Shown here in pieces: positions 6,975 to 21,295 of a stretch of DNA of 21,295 nucleotides (position 1 is the stretch's first letter; each line of letters starts with the position of its first letter). Position numbers and translations under genes: made by a program. This DNA is from Symbiobacteriaceae bacterium (GTDB taxonomy: Bacteria; Bacillota_E; Symbiobacteriia; Symbiobacteriales; Symbiobacteriaceae), in the NCBI GenBank assembly GCA_027356675.1, contig DAHVXO010000152.1, positions 1 through 21,295 of the forward strand, in the 5' to 3' direction. The notes under the pieces are model-generated. The model did not search any database and had not been told where the DNA came from. It saw nothing but the letters and a program-made list of their open reading frames with translations.

Positions 6975-9602
6975 GTGCCCAAGTATATGTCTGGCAACGA
7001 GATCCGCACTGCGTTCATCGCGTTCTTTCAATCGAAGGGCCACACCCACGTCCCCAGCTCCTCGCTGGTGCCGGTGGGCGACCCAACCCTGCTGTTCACC
7101 AACGCCGGCATGAACCAGTTCAAAGAGGCCTTCCTCGGTCTGCAGAGGCGGGAGTACGTCCGCGCCGTGACCGCCCAGAAGTGCGTTCGGGCCGGCGGCA
7201 AGCATAACGACCTCGAGGAGGTCGGTTTCACCGCCCGCCATCATACCTTCTTTGAGATGATGGGCAACTTCAGCCTGGGCGACTACTTCAAGGACGACGC
7301 CCTCGCCTACGCCTGGGAGTTCATCACCAGCCCCGAGTGGCTGGGGCTCCCCACGGACCGGCTTTGGGTCACCATTTATAAGGATGATGACCAGGCCTTC
7401 GAGATCTGGAACAAACAGGTCGGCGTGGCGGCGGACCGGATCGTGCACCTGGGCGAGAAGGAGAATTTCTGGCGAATGGGCGACACCGGCCCTTGCGGCC
7501 CCTGCTCCGAGATCTTCTGGGACTACGGTGCGGAGCACTCCTGCGATGATCCCCGGGGCTGCAGCATCGCCACGTGCGGGTGCGATCGCTGGCGGGAGTT
7601 CTGGAACAACGTCTTCATGCAATACAACCAGACCCCTGAAGGCCTTGTGCCCCTGGAGCGCACGGGCGTCGACACGGGCCTGGGCCTCGAGCGCATGGCG
7701 ACGATCATGCAGGAGGTCTGGTCCAACTGGGAGATCGACCTCTGGCTGCCCATCTTTGACCGGATCAGCGAGCTGGCCGGCAAGGCCTACACCGAGGGCC
7801 CCGAGGGCGTGCCCTTCCGGGTCATCGCCGACCACATCCGCTGCTGCACCTTCCTCATCGCCGATGGCGTCCGCTTCTCCAACGAGGGGCGCGGGTACGT
7901 CATGCGACGCATCCTGCGGCGGGCGGTCCGCTATGGGCGTTCCCTGGGCTTTGCCGAACCGTTCATGCATAAGATTGTCGCCGCGGTGGCCGCTGTCATG
8001 GGCGATGCCTATCCCGAGGTGCGGGAGCACATGGCGAATATCCAAGCTGAGATCAAGCGGGAGGAGGAGCGCTTCTTCCGGACCCTGGAGGGCGGCCTGA
8101 AGCGGCTGGAGGAGATCCTGAGGGGCATGCGCCAGGACGCCAAGTCCACCATCAGCGGTGTGGATGCCTTCGTGCTCTACGATACGTTTGGGTTCCCCCT
8201 CGATATCGTGCGGGACGTGGCCCGGGAGCACGGCTTCGCGGTGGATGAAGCCGGCTACCAATCGGCCATGGCCGAGCAGAAGAGCCGCGCCCGGGCGGCC
8301 CGGGATGTTTCCTACATGGCCGAGTCGCAGACCCGCATTGCCTCCGGCCTCGACGGCGTGACCAGGACGGCCTTCCTGGGCTATGACCTGCTCGCCGCCG
8401 ATGCACGGGTCTTAGCCGTCTTCGATGAGGAGGGTAACCCGACCGGCGCCGGTACGAATTCGGCGGTGATCATCGTATTGGACCGGACCCCGTTCTACGC
8501 CGACAGTGGCGGCCAGGTGGGCGACACCGGGATGCTGACGGCCCCCGGCCTCACCGTCCGGGTGGAAGACTGCAAGAAATTGGCCACCGGTCACTTCCTG
8601 CACGTCGCGACCGTCGAGAAGGGCTTTCTCGAGGCCGGGCAGGCGGTCTCGGCCGCCGTGGATGTGGAGCGGAGAGGGGCCATCATGAAGAACCATACGG
8701 CGACGCACCTGCTGCACAAGGCCCTGCGCACGGTCCTGGGGACCCACGTCCACCAGGCCGGTTCGCTGGTTGCCCCCGACCGGCTCCGCTTTGACTTCTC
8801 GCACACCGGGCCCATGAGTCCCGAGGAGATCGCCATGGTGGAGGAGATCGTCAACGGCGAGATCGCGGCTGCGGAGGATGTGACCTGGAGCGAGATGCCC
8901 ATCGATCAGGCGAAGTCTCTGGGCGCCATGGCGCTCTTCGGTGAGAAGTACGGCGACGTCGTCCGCATGGTCGAGGTCGGCGAGGGCTGGTCCCGGGAGC
9001 TTTGCGGCGGTACGCATGTAAAGAACGTGGGCCAGATCCAGTTTGTGAAGGTGGTCTCGGAGACCGGCATCGGCGGCGGCGTCCGCCGGCTCGAGGCGGT
9101 CACGGGCCGGGGCGTGGTCAAGTACTTTGAGGAGGCCGGGGAGCGTCAGGCCCAGGCGGCGGACCAATTGCGGAGCCGGGTCCGGGAGTTGGAGAAGGAA
9201 CTGGATCACGCCAGGGCGAAGCTTGCCGCAGGTGAGACCGACACCCTGGTGGCCAGGGCGCGTGAGGTCAAGGGTGTCAAGGTCGTGGCGGGCACAGCGC
9301 CCGTCTCCACCATGGATGACCTGCGCAATATGACGGATCTGATTCGGGGCAAGCTGGGGTCAGGCGTGGTCGTCCTCGGCGCCGTGGCGGCGGCGGATAA
9401 GGTCAATCTGGTCGCTGCAGTCACGGGCGACCTGGCAGGCAAGGTCCATGCCGGAAACCTGATCAAGCAGGTTGCGGCGATCTGTGGCGGCGGCGGCGGC
9501 GGGCGGGGAGAGATGGCGAGTGCTGGCGGCAAGGATCCCGCCAAGCTGGGCGAGGCGTTGCAGGCGGTGGCCGGCCTCGTCAGCCTGCAGATCGGCGGGT
9601 AG
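6975..9602 (+). CDS. alaS: Alanyl-tRNA synthetase
   Basis: An 875-residue full-length AlaRS, which charges tRNA-Ala in the cytoplasm. In order: class II aminoacylation core (starting MSGNEIRTAFIAFF and SSLVPVGDPTLLFTNAGMNQ), a Cys-containing insertion, the tRNA recognition domain, the editing domain with its zinc motif HTATH (about residues 574-578) and CGGTH (about 676-680), a coiled-coil stretch near 720-750, and the C-Ala domain ending in a Gly-rich run with GGGGRGEMASAGGKDP. The GTG at 6975 is the start: AGGAGG lies 8 nt upstream (6961-6966). It is regulated by the T-box in its leader. GNAT and ireB genes follow on the same strand. Confidence 0.98.
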   Translation: MPKYMSGNEIRTAFIAFFQSKGHTHVPSSSLVPVGDPTLLFTNAGMNQFKEAFLGLQRREYVRAVTAQKCVRAGGKHNDLEEVGFTARHHTFFEMMGNFSLGDYFKDDALAYAWEFITSPEWLGLPTDRLWVTIYKDDDQAFEIWNKQVGVAADRIVHLGEKENFWRMGDTGPCGPCSEIFWDYGAEHSCDDPRGCSIATCGCDRWREFWNNVFMQYNQTPEGLVPLERTGVDTGLGLERMATIMQEVWSNWEIDLWLPIFDRISELAGKAYTEGPEGVPFRVIADHIRCCTFLIADGVRFSNEGRGYVMRRILRRAVRYGRSLGFAEPFMHKIVAAVAAVMGDAYPEVREHMANIQAEIKREEERFFRTLEGGLKRLEEILRGMRQDAKSTISGVDAFVLYDTFGFPLDIVRDVAREHGFAVDEAGYQSAMAEQKSRARAARDVSYMAESQTRIASGLDGVTRTAFLGYDLLAADARVLAVFDEEGNPTGAGTNSAVIIVLDRTPFYADSGGQVGDTGMLTAPGLTVRVEDCKKLATGHFLHVATVEKGFLEAGQAVSAAVDVERRGAIMKNHTATHLLHKALRTVLGTHVHQAGSLVAPDRLRFDFSHTGPMSPEEIAMVEEIVNGEIAAAEDVTWSEMPIDQAKSLGAMALFGEKYGDVVRMVEVGEGWSRELCGGTHVKNVGQIQFVKVVSETGIGGGVRRLEAVTGRGVVKYFEEAGERQAQAADQLRSRVRELEKELDHARAKLAAGETDTLVARAREVKGVKVVAGTAPVSTMDDLRNMTDLIRGKLGSGVVVLGAVAAADKVNLVAAVTGDLAGKVHAGNLIKQVAAICGGGGGGRGEMASAGGKDPAKLGEALQAVAGLVSLQIGG

Positions 9603-10621: not shown

Positions 10622-10900
10622 CCATGTCCGACACCTCCTGAGATGACTGTATAGACTAGTACCTTTGGAGCATGGCGTAGTGCTGATGGTATGCGTTAGA
10701 ATAAAAAGACTATCTTATGTAGCCAAAATATTTGGCTTGAAACCTCTTGCTGCACGGGGTAAATCGGACAACGAAATCCACTGTTCCGTGTGGGATACCC
10801 CCGATGTCGGACTTTGGCCAGTACTCGTCCGCATGTCTTGCCATGCCGTGGTTGCCCGTCGAGTGGGTTCGACCGTGCAAGACCACAAGGAGGTCTGCCG
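10622..10900 (+). promoter_or_regulatory. Control region before the sensor kinase, with an AT-rich palindrome
   Basis: This gap holds no gene I can support. An AT-rich island at about 10690-10745 stands out against the GC-rich surroundings and contains the 17-bp dyad AGCCAAA-ATA-TTTGGCT (10721-10737, 7-bp arms perfect). It probably contains the promoter of the two-component operon and an operator, but no clear -35/-10 pair was found. The kinase binding site AAGGAGGT lies at the right end. Confidence 0.45.
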
Positions 10901-12457
10901 ATGCTGGACGACTTCGCGGTCCTGGATTGGACGCTCTCCCGTGCACTTTTCACCGCTTGTGACCACTTCTCTGATGGCGTGGTCATCATTGATGAACACC
11001 GTCTGGTCCGGTATATGAACCTCGCGGCCTCCGGGCTGGTCGGTGCGGTTCAAGTTGAAGGTCGCCGGTCGCAGCCGTGCCGTACGATCATGCGCTGCGG
11101 TCCGGTGCAGCAGCCCAACTCTGAGTGCGGTCACTGCCGGGTCTCTACGACCTTGCGCGGCCGCGTTGCCATGCCCTTCTTCGATACAGCGGTGGGGCCT
11201 CCCGGGGCCCGCGTTCCCGTCCACGCCAGTTGCTCGCCCGTACCCGGGGAACACCCGGCGGCGGTCCTCTTGCTGCGCCCAGCCATCGGATTGCCCGTTG
11301 CGCCGCCGGATGCCCCTGAGCAGCCTGATCTGCTGCCGGCACCCGGTCAGGCTGTTCTGCAATCGTTGGTCCACGCCGCACGCGAGCTGCTGGGCGCCGA
11401 CTACGCAGCGCTCGGCCGTGTCGACGTGGATGCCTCGGAGGTGGCCTGGGTCGTCCAGGAAGGAAACTGTTCCGCAGACACTGCGCGGGCTCGAGTTCCG
11501 CTGGGACAGGGCATCCGGGGTCGGGTGGTCAGCAGCGGGCAATCCGTCTTCATCTCAAGCTTCCCGCAAGGGGCGCCGGACCCGCCGGAATTGCACCCCA
11601 CCATGCAGACCGAGCAGCTGAAGGCCGCTCTGGCCGTGCCGGTCTATATCCACGGCGAATCCGCCGGGGTGCTAATGGTGGCCAGGCGTGAGCAAGGGGG
11701 ATACCTGCCTCACCACGAGCACTCCCTGCGAGTGATGGCCCGCCTGGCAGGCGAGGCGATGGCCAATGGCGACTGGTTCCTGGATGTGCAGGCCGCGGCC
11801 GTGCGGGCCGAACGCGAGTGGTTGGCGGCGGAACTGCACGACGGCCTGGCTCAAGTGCTCGGTGCCATGGTGCAAAAGCTCAAACTGGTGCGCTGGGCCA
11901 TCCGCCGCAGCGACAGCGTGGGGCAGTCAGCCCCTGGTCTTGAGGAGGTCCTGTCCCTATCCGAGCAAGCGCACCAGGAGTTGCGCCTGGCGCTGACCGA
12001 ACTGCGCATGCCGGCGACGCAGCAGGATTTCCTTGGGGCACTGGAGTCGACCCTGGCCGACTTCCGCCGGCGCTTCGGCCTGCGGGCGTCGCTGGCCGAA
12101 GTGCCTGACCTGCGGCCACCCTTCTCGGCACCGGTCGCCCTGCAGGTACTGCGGGTGATCCAGGAGGCGCTGACGAACGCCCGCAAGCACTCCGGCGGTA
12201 CCGGGGTCTCGGTGCGCTGGAGTTTTGCCGCAAACCGCCATACCTTCACGATCACAGATGACGGGCATGGTTTTACGCCGGAGCAGGCCGGCCAAGGCTT
12301 CGGCCTCAACATTATGGCTGAGCGAGCGTCCCGCATCGGCGGCTCGCTGACGGTGGTCTCGCGCCCCAGGGGGGGCTGCTCTGTCATGCTGACCGTGCCT
12401 CACCGCACACCAGAAGGGAGCCGGAAGGGTGAAGCCAGTACGAGTGCTCTTGGTTGA
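10901..12457 (+). CDS. Soluble sensor histidine kinase: PAS with four-cysteine cluster, GAF, HisKA_3, HATPase
   Basis: A 518-residue protein without membrane segments, so it senses a cytoplasmic signal. A PAS-like domain spans about 15-125 and contains C60-x5-C66-x9-C76-x2-C79, a spacing able to hold a metal or Fe-S cluster. A GAF domain follows (about 150-290), then the HisKA_3 dimerisation helix with the phospho-acceptor H313 in AELHDGLAQVLG, and the ATPase with N-box IQEALTNARKHS (N426), TDDGHGF and GQGFGLNIMAERA. This is the NarX/NreB/DegS class, which pairs with LuxR-type regulators; one overlaps its 3' end by 29 bp. NreB of staphylococci also uses a PAS with four cysteines to bind an oxygen-sensitive 4Fe-4S cluster, but spacing differs. 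The ATG at 10901 has AAGGAGGT 8 nt upstream, so the longer frame is not the start. Confidence 0.92.
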   Translation: MLDDFAVLDWTLSRALFTACDHFSDGVVIIDEHRLVRYMNLAASGLVGAVQVEGRRSQPCRTIMRCGPVQQPNSECGHCRVSTTLRGRVAMPFFDTAVGPPGARVPVHASCSPVPGEHPAAVLLLRPAIGLPVAPPDAPEQPDLLPAPGQAVLQSLVHAARELLGADYAALGRVDVDASEVAWVVQEGNCSADTARARVPLGQGIRGRVVSSGQSVFISSFPQGAPDPPELHPTMQTEQLKAALAVPVYIHGESAGVLMVARREQGGYLPHHEHSLRVMARLAGEAMANGDWFLDVQAAAVRAEREWLAAELHDGLAQVLGAMVQKLKLVRWAIRRSDSVGQSAPGLEEVLSLSEQAHQELRLALTELRMPATQQDFLGALESTLADFRRRFGLRASLAEVPDLRPPFSAPVALQVLRVIQEALTNARKHSGGTGVSVRWSFAANRHTFTITDDGHGFTPEQAGQGFGLNIMAERASRIGGSLTVVSRPRGGCSVMLTVPHRTPEGSRKGEASTSALG

Positions 12458-13070
12458 TGACCACAGCCTGTTCCGGCAGGGTACGGCCCAGGCCCTCCGC
12501 CTGTTGGGTGGCATCGATGTGGTGGGTGAGGCGGATAACGGGCTCGACGGCGTGGAGATGGCCAGGTCGCTGCGACCGGACATCACCCTCATGGATCTCT
12601 CGCTGCCCGGATTGGGCGGTCTCGAGGCGACCCGGCGCATCTGCAGCGAGGCACCCGGGGTCAAGGTGCTCGTGCTCACGTACCGGGAGGAGGAGGCCAG
12701 CCTCATCTCCGCCTTACGGGCCGGCGCCTCGGGCTACCTGCTCAAGAGTGTGGGGCCGGAGGAACTCTGGGCGCACGTCCGGGCTGCCGCCAATGGCGAC
12801 ACCCCCGTCTCCGGGTCAGTCGTGATGCGGCTGGTCAGCTCCCTGGAGCAGCGTCAACTCCTGCCGAACGACTCTGCGATATCGCTTACAGCCCGTGAGC
12901 GACAGCTAGTGGATCTGGTGGTCCGGGGGCAAAACAACACGGAGATCAGCCATGCGCTATTTATCTCTGTGAGCACGGTAAAGCTCCATTTGCACAACCT
13001 CCTGGAGAAGCTGGGGCTGAAGAACCGGGCTGAGTTGATTGGCTACGCTGCCCGCAATGGCCTGACCTAG
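12429..13070 (+). CDS. NarL/FixJ-family response regulator
   Basis: A 213-residue partner of the preceding kinase. The receiver domain (about 4-118) has acidic pair D10-D11, phospho-acceptor D56 in TLMDLSLPG, T84 and K106. The LuxR-type helix-turn-helix (about 148-210) reads LTARERQLVDLVVRG, then NNTEISHALFISVSTVKLHLHNLLEKLGLKNR with the usual S-TVKxH recognition helix. The GTG start at 12429 overlaps the kinase end by 29 bp, with GGAAGG just upstream, so the two are co-translated. Targets are unknown; the AT-rich dyad before the kinase gene is a candidate site. Confidence 0.93.
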   Translation: MKPVRVLLVDDHSLFRQGTAQALRLLGGIDVVGEADNGLDGVEMARSLRPDITLMDLSLPGLGGLEATRRICSEAPGVKVLVLTYREEEASLISALRAGASGYLLKSVGPEELWAHVRAAANGDTPVSGSVVMRLVSSLEQRQLLPNDSAISLTARERQLVDLVVRGQNNTEISHALFISVSTVKLHLHNLLEKLGLKNRAELIGYAARNGLT

Positions 13071-13693: not shown

Positions 13694-13782
13694 AATCTAA
13701 TTTTGGTTGACTTCGGACACGAAGCCTTCCGCCAACGCACAGCGATCAAGCCCATTCGTTGTCGATCTATGGAGGTCCCACC

Positions 13783-14733
13783 ATGCGCCATCCCGGGCCC
13801 GAAGCTGCACCAGTCTCTCCCGCCCGCCCCGCCGCCGGAGTGGATCTCCGTGGCCTGGGCGCCCTCCTGCTGCTCGCCGTCATGTGGGGCGCGTCGATCC
13901 CGGTCATCAAGCTGGGCCTTCGGGACCTGCCCCCGCTCACCCTGACTGCCCTCCGGTACGTCACCGCGGTGCCGTTCTTTGCGTGGAGCCTGCGCCATCA
14001 TTGGGGAGAGGTTTGGCGCCACCTCGGGCCGCTGGCCCTCCTGGCGGTGCTGAACGCCATTCCCGGCCAGGTGCTCCAGACCGTGGCGGTCCGCTACACC
14101 ACCGCCACCGTGGCCACCCTGCTCTCGGCCACCATCCCGCTCTGGTTCGTCGCCCTGGCCAGCCTCCGGCTGGGCCAGCGGCTCGGGCGGCGCCAGTGGA
14201 CGGGCTTGGCCGTGGCCATGGGCGGCATCACCCTGCTGGTGGTGGGGGACCCCCGGGACCTGAGCGGCCTCTGGTCTTTCCGAGCCTTCACCGGCAACCT
14301 GTTCATTCTGGGCTCGGCCGCGTCGGTGGCCCTGTTCTACGCCCTCAGCGCGGGCCTGGGCCTCCGGCTCTCCCCCATGGTGGTGGCAGGGGGCACCTCG
14401 GTGCTGGGCGCCGTCGCCCTGGTTCCCTTCAGCCTGTGGGAGCTGGCGCACCAGCCCCTGCGCCCCACCGCCACCGTCACAGGCATCGGCGCCGTACTGT
14501 ACCTGGCCGTGCTGGTCACCTACGTGGGCCTGCAGATCTGGTTCACGGTGCTGCAAAAGGTGCCGGCGTCCATTGCGGGCGCCTTGCAGTACCTGCAGCC
14601 GGTGGTCGGGGTGAGCCTGTCCGCCCTGCTCCTGGGGGAGACCCTGACCGCCCACTTTGCGGCGGGGGCGGTGCTGGTGCTGGTGGGAATTGGTGTGGTT
14701 ACGTCCGGGTCACGGCGTCGTGAACCCGGTTGA
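13783..14733 (+). CDS. EamA/DMT-family transporter (ten-helix exporter)
   Basis: A 316-residue membrane protein made of two EamA repeats of about five helices each. The first begins ALLLLAVMWGASIPVIKLGL (about 27-46), the typical WG-s-p-i-K opening of drug/metabolite transporters. ATVATLLSATIPLWFVALAS marks helix 4 of repeat one, and ASIAGALQYLQPVVGVSLSA is the matching helix of repeat two. Members export amino acids, metabolites or toxic compounds; the substrate cannot be read here. The ATG at 13783 has GGAGG 7 nt upstream; the upstream TTG at 13759 has none. It stands alone, bounded by an intergenic stretch and a strong hairpin. Confidence 0.9.
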   Translation: MRHPGPEAAPVSPARPAAGVDLRGLGALLLLAVMWGASIPVIKLGLRDLPPLTLTALRYVTAVPFFAWSLRHHWGEVWRHLGPLALLAVLNAIPGQVLQTVAVRYTTATVATLLSATIPLWFVALASLRLGQRLGRRQWTGLAVAMGGITLLVVGDPRDLSGLWSFRAFTGNLFILGSAASVALFYALSAGLGLRLSPMVVAGGTSVLGAVALVPFSLWELAHQPLRPTATVTGIGAVLYLAVLVTYVGLQIWFTVLQKVPASIAGALQYLQPVVGVSLSALLLGETLTAHFAAGAVLVLVGIGVVTSGSRRREPG

Positions 14734-14764
14734 CCGGATCTGAACCGATGTACACGCCCTGGCG

Positions 14765-14794
14765 AAAGGACCGGTCTGGATCGACCGGTCCTTT
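14765..14794 (+). terminator. Perfect hairpin terminator after the EamA gene
   Basis: AAAGGACCGGTC (14765-14776) pairs perfectly over 12 bp with GACCGGTCCTTT (14783-14794) across a 6-nt loop. The A-rich and T-rich flanks make it usable in both directions. It separates the transporter from the oxalate locus. Confidence 0.8.
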
Positions 14795-14862
14795 CCCATA
14801 CGTGACAATCCGGCGACTGGCCACCTGGGCAATTCGAATGTCCACTCGGCTACGCACCCATG

Positions 14863-14905
14863 ACCACGTGGTGAATTGGTTCTGACTACTCATAACTGTT
14901 AGAGT
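14863..14905 (+). promoter_or_regulatory. Candidate promoter and operators of the oxalate oxidoreductase operon
   Basis: TTGGTT (14876-14881) and TAGAGT (14900-14905) are 18 bp apart. Just upstream of the -35 is the 10-bp palindrome ACCACGTGGT (14863-14872). The spacer and -10 carry TAACTGTTA (14893-14901), a 4-1-4 dyad. A related dyad, TAACATGCTA, lies in the promoter spacer of the gntR gene at 19984-19993, so both may bind that regulator. This is inference from two sites. Confidence 0.45.
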
Positions 14906-14924
14906 ATTGGCGAGGGGGTTTGCT

Positions 14925-14954
14925 GTGAGCGAGCTGCGCTGCTGGCCGAGATGA
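14925..14954 (+). CDS. Possible 9-residue leader peptide (MSELRCWPR)
   Basis: GTG at 14925 is preceded by GAGGGGG (14912-14918) with a 6-nt gap, as good a ribosome binding site as those of the real genes here. The frame ends at TGA 14952-14954, which overlaps the next ATG as ATGA. It lies just 5' of the structured leader. Expression is unproven. Confidence 0.35.
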   Translation: MSELRCWPR

Positions 14955-15004
14955 AAGGGGGAATGGGCTTCGCATCTGTCACCGTGGCACCAGCCACGAG
15001 CTGA
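14951..15004 (+). CDS. Possible 17-residue second leader peptide, coupled to the first
   Basis: ATG at 14951 overlaps the preceding stop (ATGA). The 17-codon frame (MKGGMGFASVTVAPATS) crosses the 5' strand of the main leader stem and a whole hairpin. Ribosomes translating it would therefore melt the structure. It has no binding site of its own and would depend on coupling. Confidence 0.25.
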   Translation: MKGGMGFASVTVAPATS

Positions 15005-15124
15005 TCGCAATCTCAAGGGGGTTCGACCGTACATGACCAGGCGAAGCCCCAGCTGACGAAGACGGTCTCGGCCTGGGCCTGACCGGGGCGAGACCGTGCC
15101 AGACCTCAAGGAGGGATTTGTCCT

Positions 15125-16081
15125 ATGAACCCCGTGGAACTGTTTGCAGAACCCACCCTCAAGCAGGTGACCGTCTGGTCGCGTGGCGTCATCCTGGTCA
15201 AGGATGGGCGCGACGTCTCCTTCCTGCTGGCTAACGCCGGCCGGATGGACGGCAAACACGTACAGGCTTTTGAGAACTACGTGGACCTGCCTGATCGGGT
15301 GGGCGTTCCAGTCTCCTCGTTCGCCCGCTTTGCCGATGAGCCGATCGAGTCTCGCTTCCTTTATGAAAACACCTCCCACGACGTGGTCGTGCTTGTGGAG
15401 GAGACCCTGGTCCGGGGACCGGTCCTCAACAACATGAACAACGGCGGTGTGCTGGTGGTCAATACCCGCCGCACGGCTGCCGAGATCGCCAGGTTTCTGC
15501 CGAGGCATCCGCACCTCAAGTACATCGTGACGGTCGATGCCGCCGGCATCGCCAAGGGCAAGTTTACGCTCTCCGGTCAGGAAGGCGCCTCTGACGCCGA
15601 AGGCTTCGGCGACAACCTGGGTGGCCCACTGGCGGCGGAGGTGGCGAAGGCCACAGGCTACTGCACCCTGGAGTCCCTGATGAAAGTCGCCAAGGATCCC
15701 GTCGGGATTCAGCGTGGCTGGGACCTCGCCACCATTACCCCGGCGCAAGAACTCTTTGAGCGGGGCATCGGCAAGCCCTTCACGGGCGATGTGCCCGCCA
15801 AGGTCTACGAGACGGCCCCCTTCGCCGGCACTGTCCCCGCCCCCGACAAGCGCAACACGCTCATGGTTACCGGTACGTGGCGCACCCTGCGGCCCGTCCT
15901 GAATGCCGACCTCTGCACCCAGTGCCTGGTCTGCGTCGTGGACTGCCCCGACGCCTGCATCACCCTGAACAAGAACGCCGTCGCGGTGGACTACGAGTAC
16001 TGCAAGGGCTGCGGGATCTGCACCGCCGTCTGCCCGACCGAGGCGTTCCGGGACGAACCCGAGCTCGACTTTGTCTCGTAA
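15125..16081 (+). CDS. Oxalate oxidoreductase, fused gamma-delta subunit
   Basis: A 318-residue protein joining two modules of 2-oxoacid:ferredoxin oxidoreductases: a gamma domain (about 10-195) with FENYVDLPDRVGVPVSSFAR and LVRGPVLNNMNNGGVLVVNT, then a bacterial two-cluster ferredoxin domain (about 262-312) with CTQCLVCVVDCP and CKGCGICTAVCP, holding two 4Fe-4S clusters that pass electrons to ferredoxin. The oxalate oxidoreductase of Moorella thermoacetica has this same gamma-delta fusion at nearly the same length and the same gene order gamma, alpha, beta (from memory). The ATG at 15125 follows AAGGAGGG. It is the first gene of the operon, behind the structured leader. Function is set mainly by the alpha subunit. 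Confidence 0.88.
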   Translation: MNPVELFAEPTLKQVTVWSRGVILVKDGRDVSFLLANAGRMDGKHVQAFENYVDLPDRVGVPVSSFARFADEPIESRFLYENTSHDVVVLVEETLVRGPVLNNMNNGGVLVVNTRRTAAEIARFLPRHPHLKYIVTVDAAGIAKGKFTLSGQEGASDAEGFGDNLGGPLAAEVAKATGYCTLESLMKVAKDPVGIQRGWDLATITPAQELFERGIGKPFTGDVPAKVYETAPFAGTVPAPDKRNTLMVTGTWRTLRPVLNADLCTQCLVCVVDCPDACITLNKNAVAVDYEYCKGCGICTAVCPTEAFRDEPELDFVS

Positions 16082-16095
16082 GGGGGGGAAGAACG

Positions 16096-18268
<2,173 letters not shown>

Positions 18269-18287
18269 GGGTGTGGCCGTCCCGGAG

Positions 18288-18316
18288 CGGGGCACGGGGG
18301 AGCTCCCTGTGCCCCG
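18288..18316 (+). terminator. Strong intercistronic hairpin between the oxidoreductase and transporter genes
   Basis: CGGGGCACGGGG (18288-18299) pairs with CUCCCUGUGCCCCG-side bases 18305-18316 over 12 bp with one G-U pair and a 5-nt loop. No T-run follows. It may be a partial terminator or a 3' end stabiliser that makes the enzyme mRNA more abundant than that of the transporter. Confidence 0.5.
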
Positions 18317-18361
18317 GCTGGGGTCGGCTTCCCGCAGACCTGCACGCTTGGGGGGAGTGGC

Positions 18362-18595
18362 ATGTCGAGCGCAATCATCGCCGGGTTGTTCCTGATCGCC
18401 TGGGGACTCTGGTGTCTGGTGCGCGCACCTCGCCTGGCGGTATGCAGCCAGCGCCTGTTGTCGCGCGCACTGACCCTGACGCCCGCTCGGCGGCGGGAGT
18501 GGCTAACTCCCCTGGAATGGCGGGTCTACGGGGTCTTCTGGTGTCTCCTGGGATCCATGTTCCTGGCCCTGGCGATAACGTCCGAAGGGGGTTGA
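18362..18595 (+). CDS. Small two-helix membrane protein linked to the oxalate transporter
   Basis: A 77-residue protein I do not recognise as a named family. It has two hydrophobic segments, about residues 3-19 (SAIIAGLFLIAWGLWCLV) and 53-72 (YGVFWCLLGSMFLALAI), joined by a basic loop with many Arg residues and LTPARRREW. Each helix has one Cys next to Trp. The positive loop suggests a hairpin with both ends outside. The ATG at 18362 follows GGGGGGAG. It ends 4 bases before the transporter start, so the two are almost certainly co-translated. Some OFA-type MFS transporters in other bacteria are accompanied by a short membrane protein annotated as a small subunit; this one may play a comparable part, but that is inference. 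Confidence 0.8.
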   Translation: MSSAIIAGLFLIAWGLWCLVRAPRLAVCSQRLLSRALTLTPARRREWLTPLEWRVYGVFWCLLGSMFLALAITSEGG

Positions 18596-18599
18596 GCAA

Positions 18600-19901
18600 A
18601 TGGTTCAGGAGGCGCAGTCAAAACGCGATCCGTTGATGTCATCCCGTTGGATTATTCTTGTGGCACTGGTTCTTTCCATGATGGCAATCGCGAACTTCCA
18701 GTATGCGTGGACGCTCTTCACCGGCGTCGTCCGCAAGGAGTTTGGCGCTTCGCTGGCGGCCGTGCAGGTGACCTTCACCCTGTTCATCGCAGTGCAGACC
18801 TGGGTCGTGCCCTTCGTCGGCTATCTGGTAGACCGATTCGGGGCGCGGCTGCTGATGTCCGTCGCCGGTGTGATCGTCGGCGCAAGCTGGGTCTGGTCCA
18901 GTCAGGTCCACTCGCTGTCCGCACTCTACATCTCCTATGCCTTTGGCGGCATCGGCGTGGGTGCGGTCTACGGGGCTTCGATCGGCATCGTCACGAAGTG
19001 GTTCCCCGACCGTCGGGGGCTGTGTGCCGGACTTGTGGCTGGCTCCTACGGATTCGGCACCCTGTTCACGGTACTGCCCATCTCTTCGATTATTGAGGGG
19101 GCCGGCTGGCGGCAGGCGCTCTTCACATTCGGGCTGATCTCGGGTGTCCTTGTCCTGCTGGCTGCCCAGTTCGTGAAGTCCCCCGATCCCGCCTGGAAGC
19201 CGCTCGGTTGGGTGCCCAAGAACACGGCGCGAGTCGCCCAGTCGGCCAAGAGTTATACCCCCGCCCAGATGCTGAAGACCCCGCCATTCTACATTCTCTA
19301 CCTCATGATGACCATGGTCGCCTTCGGTGGCATGATGGTCACGGCACAGCTCAAGCCCATCGGGACCTCGTACGGATACGACAAGTTTATGGTTCTGTCC
19401 ATGAGCGCTGTCAACCTGGCCTTGATGCTCGACCGGTTCCTCAACGGCTTCACGCGGCCGATGTGGGGCTGGATCTCCGACCACATCGGGCGCTACAATA
19501 CGATGGCGCTTGCGTTCTCGCTGGAGTCGATCGCCATCATCATCTTCGCCCTGACCATCAAGAACCCCATCGCCTTCGTGATCATGTCCGGCATGACGTT
19601 CTTCGCCTGGGGGGAGATCTACTCGCTCTTCCCGTCGGCGATCACGGACGTGTACGGGCCCAAGTACTCGGCCACCAACTACGGCATCCAGTACACCTCC
19701 AAGGGCGTGGCTACACTGCTGGCAGGCCCGGGCGCAGCCCTCTTGATGGAGTGGAGTGGTTCCTGGCTGCCCGTGCTGTATTCCGCCGTGGCGATGGACC
19801 TGGTTGCCGCCGTCCTGGCCTTCTTCTGGCTCAAGCCTATGATCAAGACCCTGCTGGCCAGGCGTGAGATCGAGGGTCTGCAGGCCGTCACTGGCGACTA
19901 G
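18600..19901 (+). CDS. OFA-family MFS transporter, oxalate/formate antiporter-like
   Basis: A 433-residue protein with twelve predicted helices and MFS marks: DRFGAR after helix 2 (79-83) and the matching SDHIGRYN (293-300) after helix 8. It resembles OxlT of Oxalobacter: R279 in LDRFLNGFTRP and K368 in QYTSKGVATLLAGPG stand near the places of OxlT Arg272 and Lys355, the charged residues that bind oxalate (mapping by eye). LFPSAITDVYGPKYSATNYG is typical of the OFA family. The ATG at 18600 follows AAGGGGG. Its place in an oxalate oxidoreductase operon supports oxalate as the imported substrate. Since that enzyme makes CO2 and not formate, the exchanged counter-ion is unclear. Confidence 0.9.
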   Translation: MVQEAQSKRDPLMSSRWIILVALVLSMMAIANFQYAWTLFTGVVRKEFGASLAAVQVTFTLFIAVQTWVVPFVGYLVDRFGARLLMSVAGVIVGASWVWSSQVHSLSALYISYAFGGIGVGAVYGASIGIVTKWFPDRRGLCAGLVAGSYGFGTLFTVLPISSIIEGAGWRQALFTFGLISGVLVLLAAQFVKSPDPAWKPLGWVPKNTARVAQSAKSYTPAQMLKTPPFYILYLMMTMVAFGGMMVTAQLKPIGTSYGYDKFMVLSMSAVNLALMLDRFLNGFTRPMWGWISDHIGRYNTMALAFSLESIAIIIFALTIKNPIAFVIMSGMTFFAWGEIYSLFPSAITDVYGPKYSATNYGIQYTSKGVATLLAGPGAALLMEWSGSWLPVLYSAVAMDLVAAVLAFFWLKPMIKTLLARREIEGLQAVTGD

Positions 19902-19935
19902 ACGCGAAGGCTCCGGGGTTGGCCTCGTTGACCCC

Positions 19936-19967
19936 ACCGGTGTCCGGGCGGTAAGCCCGGCATCGGT
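19936..19967 (+). terminator. Hairpin after the transporter gene
   Basis: ACCGGTG-T-CCGGGC pairs with GCCCGG-CATCGGT across GGTAA: 13 pairs with one G-U and one bulged T. It lies 35 bases after the transporter stop and 75 before the regulator gene. No T-run, so a likely but unproven terminator. Confidence 0.5.
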
Positions 19968-19975
19968 TAGACCTG

Positions 19976-20041
19976 AGTGGTTATAACATGCTAATGCGTA
20001 TACTAATAGAACCGTAGACCAAATTCCCGGGGGTGTTGGGG
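19976..20041 (+). promoter_or_regulatory. Promoter region of the GntR regulator gene
   Basis: An AT-rich patch carries TATACT (19999-20004), a good -10, with only a weak -35 (GTGGTT, 19977-19982). The spacer contains TAACATGCTA (19984-19993), a near-dyad related to TAACTGTTA before the oxidoreductase genes. The regulator would thus have its own promoter and might bind here. Confidence 0.45.
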
Positions 20042-20776
20042 ATGATGGTGGACCCTGAGAGCGCCCTGCCGCTCTATGCCCAGGTCAAGGACATCCTGGG
20101 ACGGCAGATTCGCGGCGGCACGTACCAGGCGCACCAGGCACTGCCGGCGGAGCGGGACCTGGTGGATCGGTTCGGCGTGAGCCGGATCACGGTGCGGCGC
20201 GCCCTGGCCGAGCTGGTGGGCGAGGGGCTGCTCTACCGGCGGGTGGGGCGGGGCACCTTCGTGGCGGCGGAGCCGATCGTAGGGACGCTGACCGAACTGA
20301 CGGGGCACCTGGAGGAACTGATCCGGCGAAACCTGCATCCCGAGGTGCGGTTGGTGGAGTCCGCGCAGATCCCCACGCCGGTGGAGGCCGCAGTGGAGTT
20401 GGGTGGGTCGCGGGAGGTCCTGTTCGTGCGGCGCGTGGTCTCCGTGGAAGGGGCGCCGCTTCTGGTGTTGGACATTTGCGTGCCCGCGGACCTGGGCATG
20501 CGGTTCGCCCCCCAGGCGCTGACGGTGGAGCCGATCAACCGGCTGCTCGAGGCGCAGGGATTTCATCCCGTCAGTGGGGAGCAGCGAATCCGGGCCCGGG
20601 CAGTGGAGGAGACCGAGGCGCTCCTGCTCGAGGTTGAGCCTGGGACACCTGTGCTGGAGGTCACACGGACTGAGCGGACGATCGGGGAGCGCGGGCTGCT
20701 CTGGTCGCGGGCGGTCTACCGGGGAGACCGGTACCAGTATGTGATCCGGTTGCATCGGAGGCGCAGCTTGGCCTGA
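20042..20776 (+). CDS. GntR-family (HutC/UTRA) transcriptional regulator
   Basis: A 244-residue regulator. An N-terminal winged helix (about 10-75) reads LYAQVKDILGRQIRGGTY, LPAERDLVDRFGVSRITVRR, ALAELVGEGLLYRRVGRGTF, the GntR signature. The C-terminal effector domain (about 90-240) is of UTRA type with PVLEVTRTERT and a closing YRGDRYQYVI. UTRA domains usually bind small acids or sugars phosphates that relieve DNA binding; here oxalate or a related acid is a guess from context. The ATG at 20042 follows GGGGGTG at 7 nt; a GTG at 20033 and an ATG at 20045 are alternatives. It follows the oxalate transporter on the same strand behind a hairpin, with its own -10. Confidence 0.92.
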   Translation: MMVDPESALPLYAQVKDILGRQIRGGTYQAHQALPAERDLVDRFGVSRITVRRALAELVGEGLLYRRVGRGTFVAAEPIVGTLTELTGHLEELIRRNLHPEVRLVESAQIPTPVEAAVELGGSREVLFVRRVVSVEGAPLLVLDICVPADLGMRFAPQALTVEPINRLLEAQGFHPVSGEQRIRARAVEETEALLLEVEPGTPVLEVTRTERTIGERGLLWSRAVYRGDRYQYVIRLHRRRSLA

Positions 20777-20984: not shown

Positions 20985-21295
20985 TCACCCCACCCGTCGC
21001 GGCCGCAGGGTGTTGCTTTCAACCAGCAGTTGCCGGGCGGTCCGGCCAGGAAGGCGATACCAGGCCAGGTAGTGGTGAAGGTACCGGGTGGCGACCCCGT
21101 GAAACTGCAACAGCCAGGCGTAGAGTCCCCTCAGGAGCCTCTCCACGGCTCTGCAAGGCGGCGTCCACCCGGCTGCGGCCCCCGGGCCCCACGCCTCCCG
21201 GTGGGGAACACCCAGGCGCAGGCAGGCCGCGGCATAGGGGGCAAGCCCCAGGGTCGACAGTTCTGCCCCGGCTCCGAGGGTCTGCGCCAGGGTGG
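20985..21295 (-). mobile_element. C-terminal end of an IS1595-like (ISXO2-type) transposase, cut by the window edge
   Basis: On the minus strand an open frame enters at the right edge and stops at 20985-20987, about 103 codons. It contains LGLAPYAAACLRLGVPHREA and then RLLRGLYAWLLQFHGVATRY followed by LHHYLAWYR, the last matching the F-H-G-V-(A/S)-T-(K/R)-Y-L--Y-L-W block at the C terminus of IS1595-family transposases. Where members usually have the second catalytic Asp (TDGLAPY-like), this copy reads TLGLAPY, so it may be inactive. The DNA-binding and first catalytic parts lie outside. No terminal inverted repeat could be defined between 20777 and 20984. Confidence 0.65.

Follow-up and report, generated by a model that had tools for sequence, protein, structure and literature searches.

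Can one short run of genes hold all that a bacterium needs to take up oxalate and oxidise it? The question is raised by a 21,295-base stretch of DNA (65% GC; hereafter the window) from a Symbiobacteriaceae bacterium, contig DAHVXO010000152.1. On its + strand the window carries genes for an oxalate oxidoreductase (OOR), a 77-residue membrane protein, an OFA-family transporter and a GntR-type regulator. A sequence-only reading had described this run as a self-contained oxalate oxidation locus. The observation as a whole was confirmed and its interpretation was partly supported. The locus is very likely an oxalate import-and-oxidation module. The enzyme itself is already known; what is new here is the variant of the locus, in which a gene for a CDC48/p97-type double AAA+ ATPase is missing from its usual place. 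The pairing of OOR with this ATPase, together with the exception found in the window, is the most interesting thing that we saw.

Identity of the enzyme and its transporter

All three subunits passed the curated NCBIfam equivalog models for OOR: delta with 453.7 bits (NF045790; cut-off 230), alpha with 695.6 bits (NF045791; cut-off 500) and beta, barely, with 594.5 bits (NF045792; cut-off 590). In the PDB, the top match of every subunit was the OOR of Moorella (5c4i_A for alpha, E 1.9e-168; 5c4i_C for beta, E 3.5e-158; 5c4i_B for delta, E 1.6e-93). These matches scored 564, 529 and 317 bits; the runner-up in each case, a pyruvate:ferredoxin oxidoreductase (PFOR), reached 226, 265 and 55 bits. 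When aligned with 5c4i, delta showed CxxCxxCxxxCP at residues 264 and 293 (two [4Fe-4S] motifs), and beta the GDG...N motif for thiamine diphosphate and Cys 26, 29, 54 and 227 for the proximal [4Fe-4S] cluster. Judged by these motifs, the three cluster sites and the thiamine diphosphate site are complete.

The start of alpha was taken as the ATG at 16096; the 476-residue frame in the list of open reading frames (ORFs) begins further upstream in the same frame. Numbered from this ATG, alpha has YPIRPY at residues 35–40 (including R38) and also R116, D119, D123 and F124, all with a constant offset of 7 from the numbering of the Moorella enzyme in the alignment. As further pocket counterparts we take Moorella D112 and F117. 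R31 (in YPIRP), R109 and D116 of Moorella OOR are named in an extract of PMC5020499. The five positions R38, R116, D119, D123 and F124 were invariant in 149 of 149 aligned OOR-type alphas, which are close relatives by choice and include some duplicates (the window, the 29 loci of the survey described below and the 119 best database rows of 2093). All three PorA paralogues have T, R, A, T and I at positions 38, 116, 119, 123 and 124. Since R116 is common to OOR and PorA, only the other four positions discriminate.

We also placed alpha in a quick tree of 80 rows without bootstrap (the window, the 29 loci, 47 of the 119 database rows and three PorA; 2-oxoglutarate and branched-chain enzymes were left out). 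OOR and PorA separated at support 100, and the window fell on the OOR side, within an 11-row clade with Caldinitratiruptor (SH-aLRT 99). It is very improbable that the enzyme is instead a 2-oxoacid:ferredoxin oxidoreductase acting on a 2-oxoacid such as pyruvate or glyoxylate, with an oxalate label that is a copied annotation. Such a reading could point to the common superfamily, to the R116 of PorA and to the many database relatives that, among the matches listed, are still called 'pyruvate ferredoxin oxidoreductase'. However, it has to explain YPIRPY instead of YPITP, the presence of D119, D123 and F124, the position of alpha among the OOR rows and the adjoining OFA gene. The three-subunit OOR with an oxalate pocket at constant Moorella offset and the grouping of alpha apart from pyruvate-type enzymes, both anticipated by the sequence-only reading, were thus borne out by family models, residues and tree.

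By its sequence, then, the enzyme is an OOR of the known kind in an under-described lineage. It shares with the OOR of Moorella thermoacetica (PDB 5c4i, 5exd, 5exe) the three subunits, the fused gamma and delta domains and the ligands of pocket and clusters, and the gene order delta-alpha-beta is the same in the window and in Moorella loci. The window alpha is 63–65% identical to those of M. stamsii and M. mulderi. According to an extract of PMC5020499, Moorella OOR is independent of coenzyme A (CoA) and its product is two CO2. By analogy, we propose that the window enzyme would likewise convert oxalate to CO2 independently of CoA.

The transporter passed the oxalate/formate antiporter model TIGR04259 (452 bits, cut-off 335), and its closest structure was OxlT of Oxalobacter formigenes (8hpj; E 1.1e-71), with which it shares 36% identity. 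We mapped ten OxlT site residues named in an extract of PMC10070484 onto the window protein. Eight are kept (Q34, Y35, Y124, Y150, R272, W324, Y328 and K355 in 8hpj/8hpk), among them residues of the aromatic cage and the basic pair of R272 and K355, which correspond to R286 and K368 of the window. The OxlT-type transporter that had been assigned to the same gene run is therefore present, and its sequence makes it a probable oxalate carrier. It would import oxalate either as an exchanger or together with protons.

Several findings weigh against reading the locus as a module for oxalate import and oxidation. Beta clears its OOR cut-off by just 4.5 bits. The transporter lies below the cut-off of the broader model TIGR00890 (264.7 versus 374.85 bits) and near the lactate model NF049980 (307 versus 320 bits), and two of the ten OxlT site residues are changed (Q63 to I and W352 to Y). 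As OOR yields CO2 and not formate, a simple oxalate:formate exchange needs a separate source of formate. Finally, the window has no CDC48-type ATPase gene, although almost every one of the 29 comparison loci carries one beside OOR.

The score near the lactate model and the altered Q63 and W352 would also suit an explanation in which OOR is real and serves a detoxifying or co-substrate pathway, not growth, and the OFA protein mainly moves formate, lactate or another carboxylate; an LctP-type permease occupies the same place in 9 of 29 related loci. We consider this improbable. K355 is kept, at a position where the lactate transporter 6g9x carries a cysteine in the alignment, and both substitutions recur in all nine other OOR-linked OFA proteins compared (L037, L041, L043, L045–L047, L049, L050 and L063), so that I63/Y352 (OxlT numbering) is present in 10 of 10 with the window included. 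This recurrence makes the two changes compatible with oxalate use. The comparison omitted L042, in which the gene is split into two ORFs, and L044, in which it lies upstream on the opposite strand. Position 150 is F in those nine proteins (Y in the window), and position 328 is F in three of them. We speculate that I63/Y352 perhaps marks an OFA sub-type in which formate is not the exchanged partner, as would suit an enzyme with CO2 as its only product.

Oxalate oxidoreductase and the CDC48-type ATPase

To place the window among related loci, we used 398 sampled genomes from the phylum of Moorella (Bacillota) and 14 control genomes, four of them archaea. The OOR-alpha cut-off was passed in 29 of the 398 and in none of the controls, and all 29 loci were fetched. 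Alpha relatives among the best 120 of 2093 matches include Thermodesulfobacteriota, Actinomycetota, NC10, Ignavibacteriales and Acetomicrobium. The sequence-only reading took oxalate oxidation of this type to be described for a handful of organisms, mostly acetogens; at the level of sequence this view fails, and OOR is less rare than had been supposed. Plasmid-borne copies were rejected: the best plasmid match had 36.5% identity and no annotation, and the second was annotated porA. A scan of viral contigs that catches close relatives only detected no copies. On the tree, G173 is the sampled genome closest to the window clade; its class comprised seven genomes, with no closer relative among them.

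The usual layout is an FCD-type GntR gene, the CDC48 gene, OOR delta-alpha-beta and a transporter gene. Relatives of the Moorella FCD-type regulator were found in 21 of the 29 loci, 19 of them at −1.7 to −4.5 kb of alpha and those of L044 and L048 elsewhere. Just downstream of beta we found an OFA gene (10/29), an LctP-type permease gene (9/29), a DctM-like gene (2/29) or none of these (8/29; short contigs limit some). Fourteen of the 29 loci (L035–L040, L042, L043, L050, L051 and L058–L061) have a relative of ClC-type anion channels or exchangers on the downstream side of OOR, in ten cases near a gene for an NAD-dependent epimerase.

In 28 of 29 OOR loci (L035–L061 and L063; for example L036:4649–6874), delta is immediately preceded on its own strand by the gene for the CDC48/p97-type ATPase. 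The association extended to whole genomes. Full-length CDC48 was detected in 35 of 398 genomes, namely in 28 of 29 with OOR and in 7 of 369 without (at E 1e-100, with up to two candidates from each genome scored and three further single-domain matches set aside; genome completeness unstated). All four control archaea had it, as expected. Fisher's exact test gave p ~2e-35, a value that overstates the association because the genomes are related. When four OOR-linked proteins were compared with NCBIfam TIGR01243 (cut-off 802.65), three passed and one scored 753.7; of the 28 OOR-linked copies scored in the genome search, four stayed below this cut-off (659–802 bits). In 23 of the 28 copies, both Walker A sites fit a strict pattern.

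In the seven sampled genomes that have CDC48 but not OOR, its neighbours are gas-vesicle-like genes (GvpF/L-, GvpG-, Hsp20- and ArsA-like, named by eye), and the same setting holds for the second CDC48 copies of G127 and G280 (loci L064–L071 and L074 in all). The sole sampled OOR locus without CDC48 is L062 (genome G021), in which an FCD-type GntR gene stands directly before a split delta and alpha sits on a long branch. The pairing was not found in the literature searched, which consisted mostly of titles and the starts of abstracts; the original Moorella OOR papers were not among it and may mention it.

In the window, no CDC48 was detected by tblastn at E 1e-5. Its locus shares delta-alpha-beta with the CDC48-associated OOR locus of Bacillota, in which a carboxylate transporter often follows. 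It differs by the missing CDC48 gene, a UTRA-type instead of an FCD-type GntR gene and the orphan 77-residue protein. The loci of M. stamsii and M. mulderi have CDC48 and FCD-type GntR genes upstream of OOR and epimerase and ClC genes downstream, and the window has none of the four; relatives of the Moorella FCD regulator, epimerase and ClC protein over 60 bits were sought in a window that reaches only ~520 bases beyond the GntR gene. The description of the module as self-contained is right in that enzyme, OFA and GntR genes stand together, and it needs a qualifier because the ATPase of 28 of 29 comparison loci is not there.

The nearest sampled neighbours of the window clade on the tree are L063 and then L055–L057, which have CDC48, and L062, which lacks it. 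As the nearest neighbours mostly have the gene, the more economical reading seems to be that the window's line lost or relocated it, not that its ancestors never had it; the window is the only locus of its 11-row clade that was read. A relocated copy would mean that the module only appears complete and that CDC48 is encoded elsewhere in the genome. Our view is limited to 21 kb, and 28 of 29 comparison genomes with OOR have the ATPase. However, CDC48 was next upstream of OOR in all 28, so a distant copy would be unusual, and G021 combines a regulator directly before OOR with no CDC48 match at E 1e-100 (completeness unstated). Moreover, no Caldinitratiruptor CDC48 was among the 120 listed of 7996 matches, a weak argument as most rows are nameless. 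On balance, we regard a copy elsewhere as rather unlikely.

We tentatively suggest, as a possibility that falls short of an even chance, that OOR of Bacillota normally has a CDC48/p97-type AAA+ unfoldase of its own as a working partner. This unfoldase might activate or repair the enzyme by reopening stalled OOR complexes or taking them apart. The lineage of the window, which is kin to Caldinitratiruptor, would then operate OOR without CDC48, under a different regulator and with a new two-helix membrane protein beside the transporter.

Regulator, leader and other features of the window

The genes of the OOR subunits, the small protein, the transporter and the regulator were all found where the sequence-only reading had placed them (Table 1). 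They lie on one strand with gaps of 14, 19, 93, 4 and 131 nt from delta to the GntR gene, and AAGGAGG precedes the start codon of delta. We infer from this arrangement that the genes may be co-transcribed.

Table 1. Positions of genes and other elements in the window
Feature	Positions	Strand	Evidence or remark
alaS	6975–9602	+	upstream gene
EamA transporter gene	13759–14733	+	last gene before the OOR run
Perfect 13-bp inverted repeat, 6-nt loop	14764–14795		between EamA and OOR genes
Possible 5' leader of the OOR transcript	14863–15124	+	two local hairpins, ~14965–15049 and ~15062–15097
OOR delta (gamma and delta domains fused)	15125–16081	+	NF045790, 5c4i_B, two [4Fe-4S] motifs
OOR alpha (substrate pocket R38, Y40, R116, D119, D123, F124)	16096–17307	+	NF045791, 5c4i_A, residues, tree
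OOR beta (thiamine diphosphate motif, four proximal-cluster cysteines)	17327–18268	+	NF045792, 5c4i_C
77-residue small membrane protein, orphan	18362–18595	+	two hydrophobic stretches
OFA-family MFS transporter, probable oxalate carrier	18600–19901	+	TIGR04259, 8hpj OxlT
GntR-family regulator with UTRA ligand domain (HutC-like)	20033–20776	+	PF00392, PF07702

The regulator combines the GntR DNA-binding domain with a UTRA domain, as do the HutC/UTRA-type regulators of TIGR02018. This HutC model was its best NCBIfam match, but the score of 116 bits was under the cut-off of 220. Relatives over 60 bits were found in none of the 29 other OOR loci; a 333-residue GntR protein in L063 matches it at 36%. 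The OOR leader was compared with the gap that precedes the GntR gene to see whether they have an operator motif in common; no pair of 16-mers had 13 or more matches, whereas 7 of 20 shuffles reached 13, and the idea was rejected. With no motif beyond chance, the case for regulation comes from adjacency alone. Control of the run probably lies with the GntR/UTRA protein, which would respond to oxalate or a product.

The 391 nt before delta are non-coding: the GC content at third codon positions (GC3) in the three forward frames of 14734–15124 is 0.58–0.61, compared with 0.83–0.85 in the OOR genes. The leader RNA of the sequence-only reading finds weak support in this and in two sub-hairpins, chosen after the fold had been seen, with z −2.9 and −3.0. 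However, the proposed region as a whole (14863–15124) folds no better than shuffled sequence (z −0.82; 44 of 200 at least as good), and it had no Rfam match at gathering score, only three chance-level matches (E 0.5–2.5). We infer that the region may serve as a leader. That it is a riboswitch sensing oxalate or a related compound is very unlikely. The length of non-coding DNA and the two stable hairpins, one of which ends ~10 nt before the ribosome site, would suit such an element, but the fold of the whole and the Rfam result speak against it, a protein regulator is already present in the locus, and no homologous leader was available for covariation. Further upstream, 78 nt around the inverted repeat (14738–14815) fold at z −6.3, with 0 of 200 shuffles as good. 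The repeat lacks a run of T, and a scan for terminators came up empty; it is probably the end of the EamA transcript.

The gene for the small membrane protein proposed before the OFA gene was confirmed (GC3 0.79). The 77-residue product has Kyte-Doolittle peaks within residues 1–29 and 53–77, and its ORF stops 4 nt ahead of the OFA start. A database search found no relative other than the protein itself (just four candidates sharing words), tblastn found none in the 29 OOR loci, and no Pfam family scored over its cut-off. Two-helix proteins of 60–77 residues are encoded beside LctP genes in other OOR loci, among them the membrane proteins of 62–77 residues that follow the LctP gene in L035 (12131–12364), L036, L039, L040 and L051; those of L035, L036 and L051 are related by BLAST, and those of L039 and L040 are alike by eye. 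Kinship with the 77-residue protein was rejected, as they are unrelated to it by BLAST; they parallel it in standing at a transporter gene.

No tRNA and no Rfam match at gathering score was found anywhere in the window. Upstream of the OOR locus, at 10790–13070 on the + strand, we observed genes for a NarQ-like histidine kinase and a LuxR-type response regulator. The pair would fit a nitrate-respiring host and has no shown link to oxalate. At the end of the window lies an open ORF on the − strand (20985–21293), for which neither Pfam (at E 1) nor PHROG (at E 0.1) gave a match; its C-terminus presumably resembles IS-type transposases.

Proposed electron fate and the meaning of a CDC48-free locus

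To our knowledge, the OOR pathway is known biochemically from Moorella. The only named row in the window's 11-row clade is Caldinitratiruptor microaerophilus, a microaerophilic, nitrate-reducing bacterium of 71% GC with cytochrome oxidase genes (PMC9933637). Because Caldinitratiruptor reduces nitrate and has these genes, we propose that electrons from oxalate would more likely feed respiration than acetogenesis in the window's lineage. The pathway is thereby extended to a lineage with a nitrate-reducing named member, so that acetogenesis may not be the only setting in which OOR oxidises oxalate.

The gene pairing is very strong, and the window, in which no CDC48 adjoins OOR, offers a natural counter-example to it. 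Comparison of the versions with and without CDC48 would make it testable what task a eukaryote-style unfoldase performs for a bacterial thiamine enzyme. If the suggested partnership is true, the CDC48-free lineage would show what replaces the unfoldase or makes it unnecessary.

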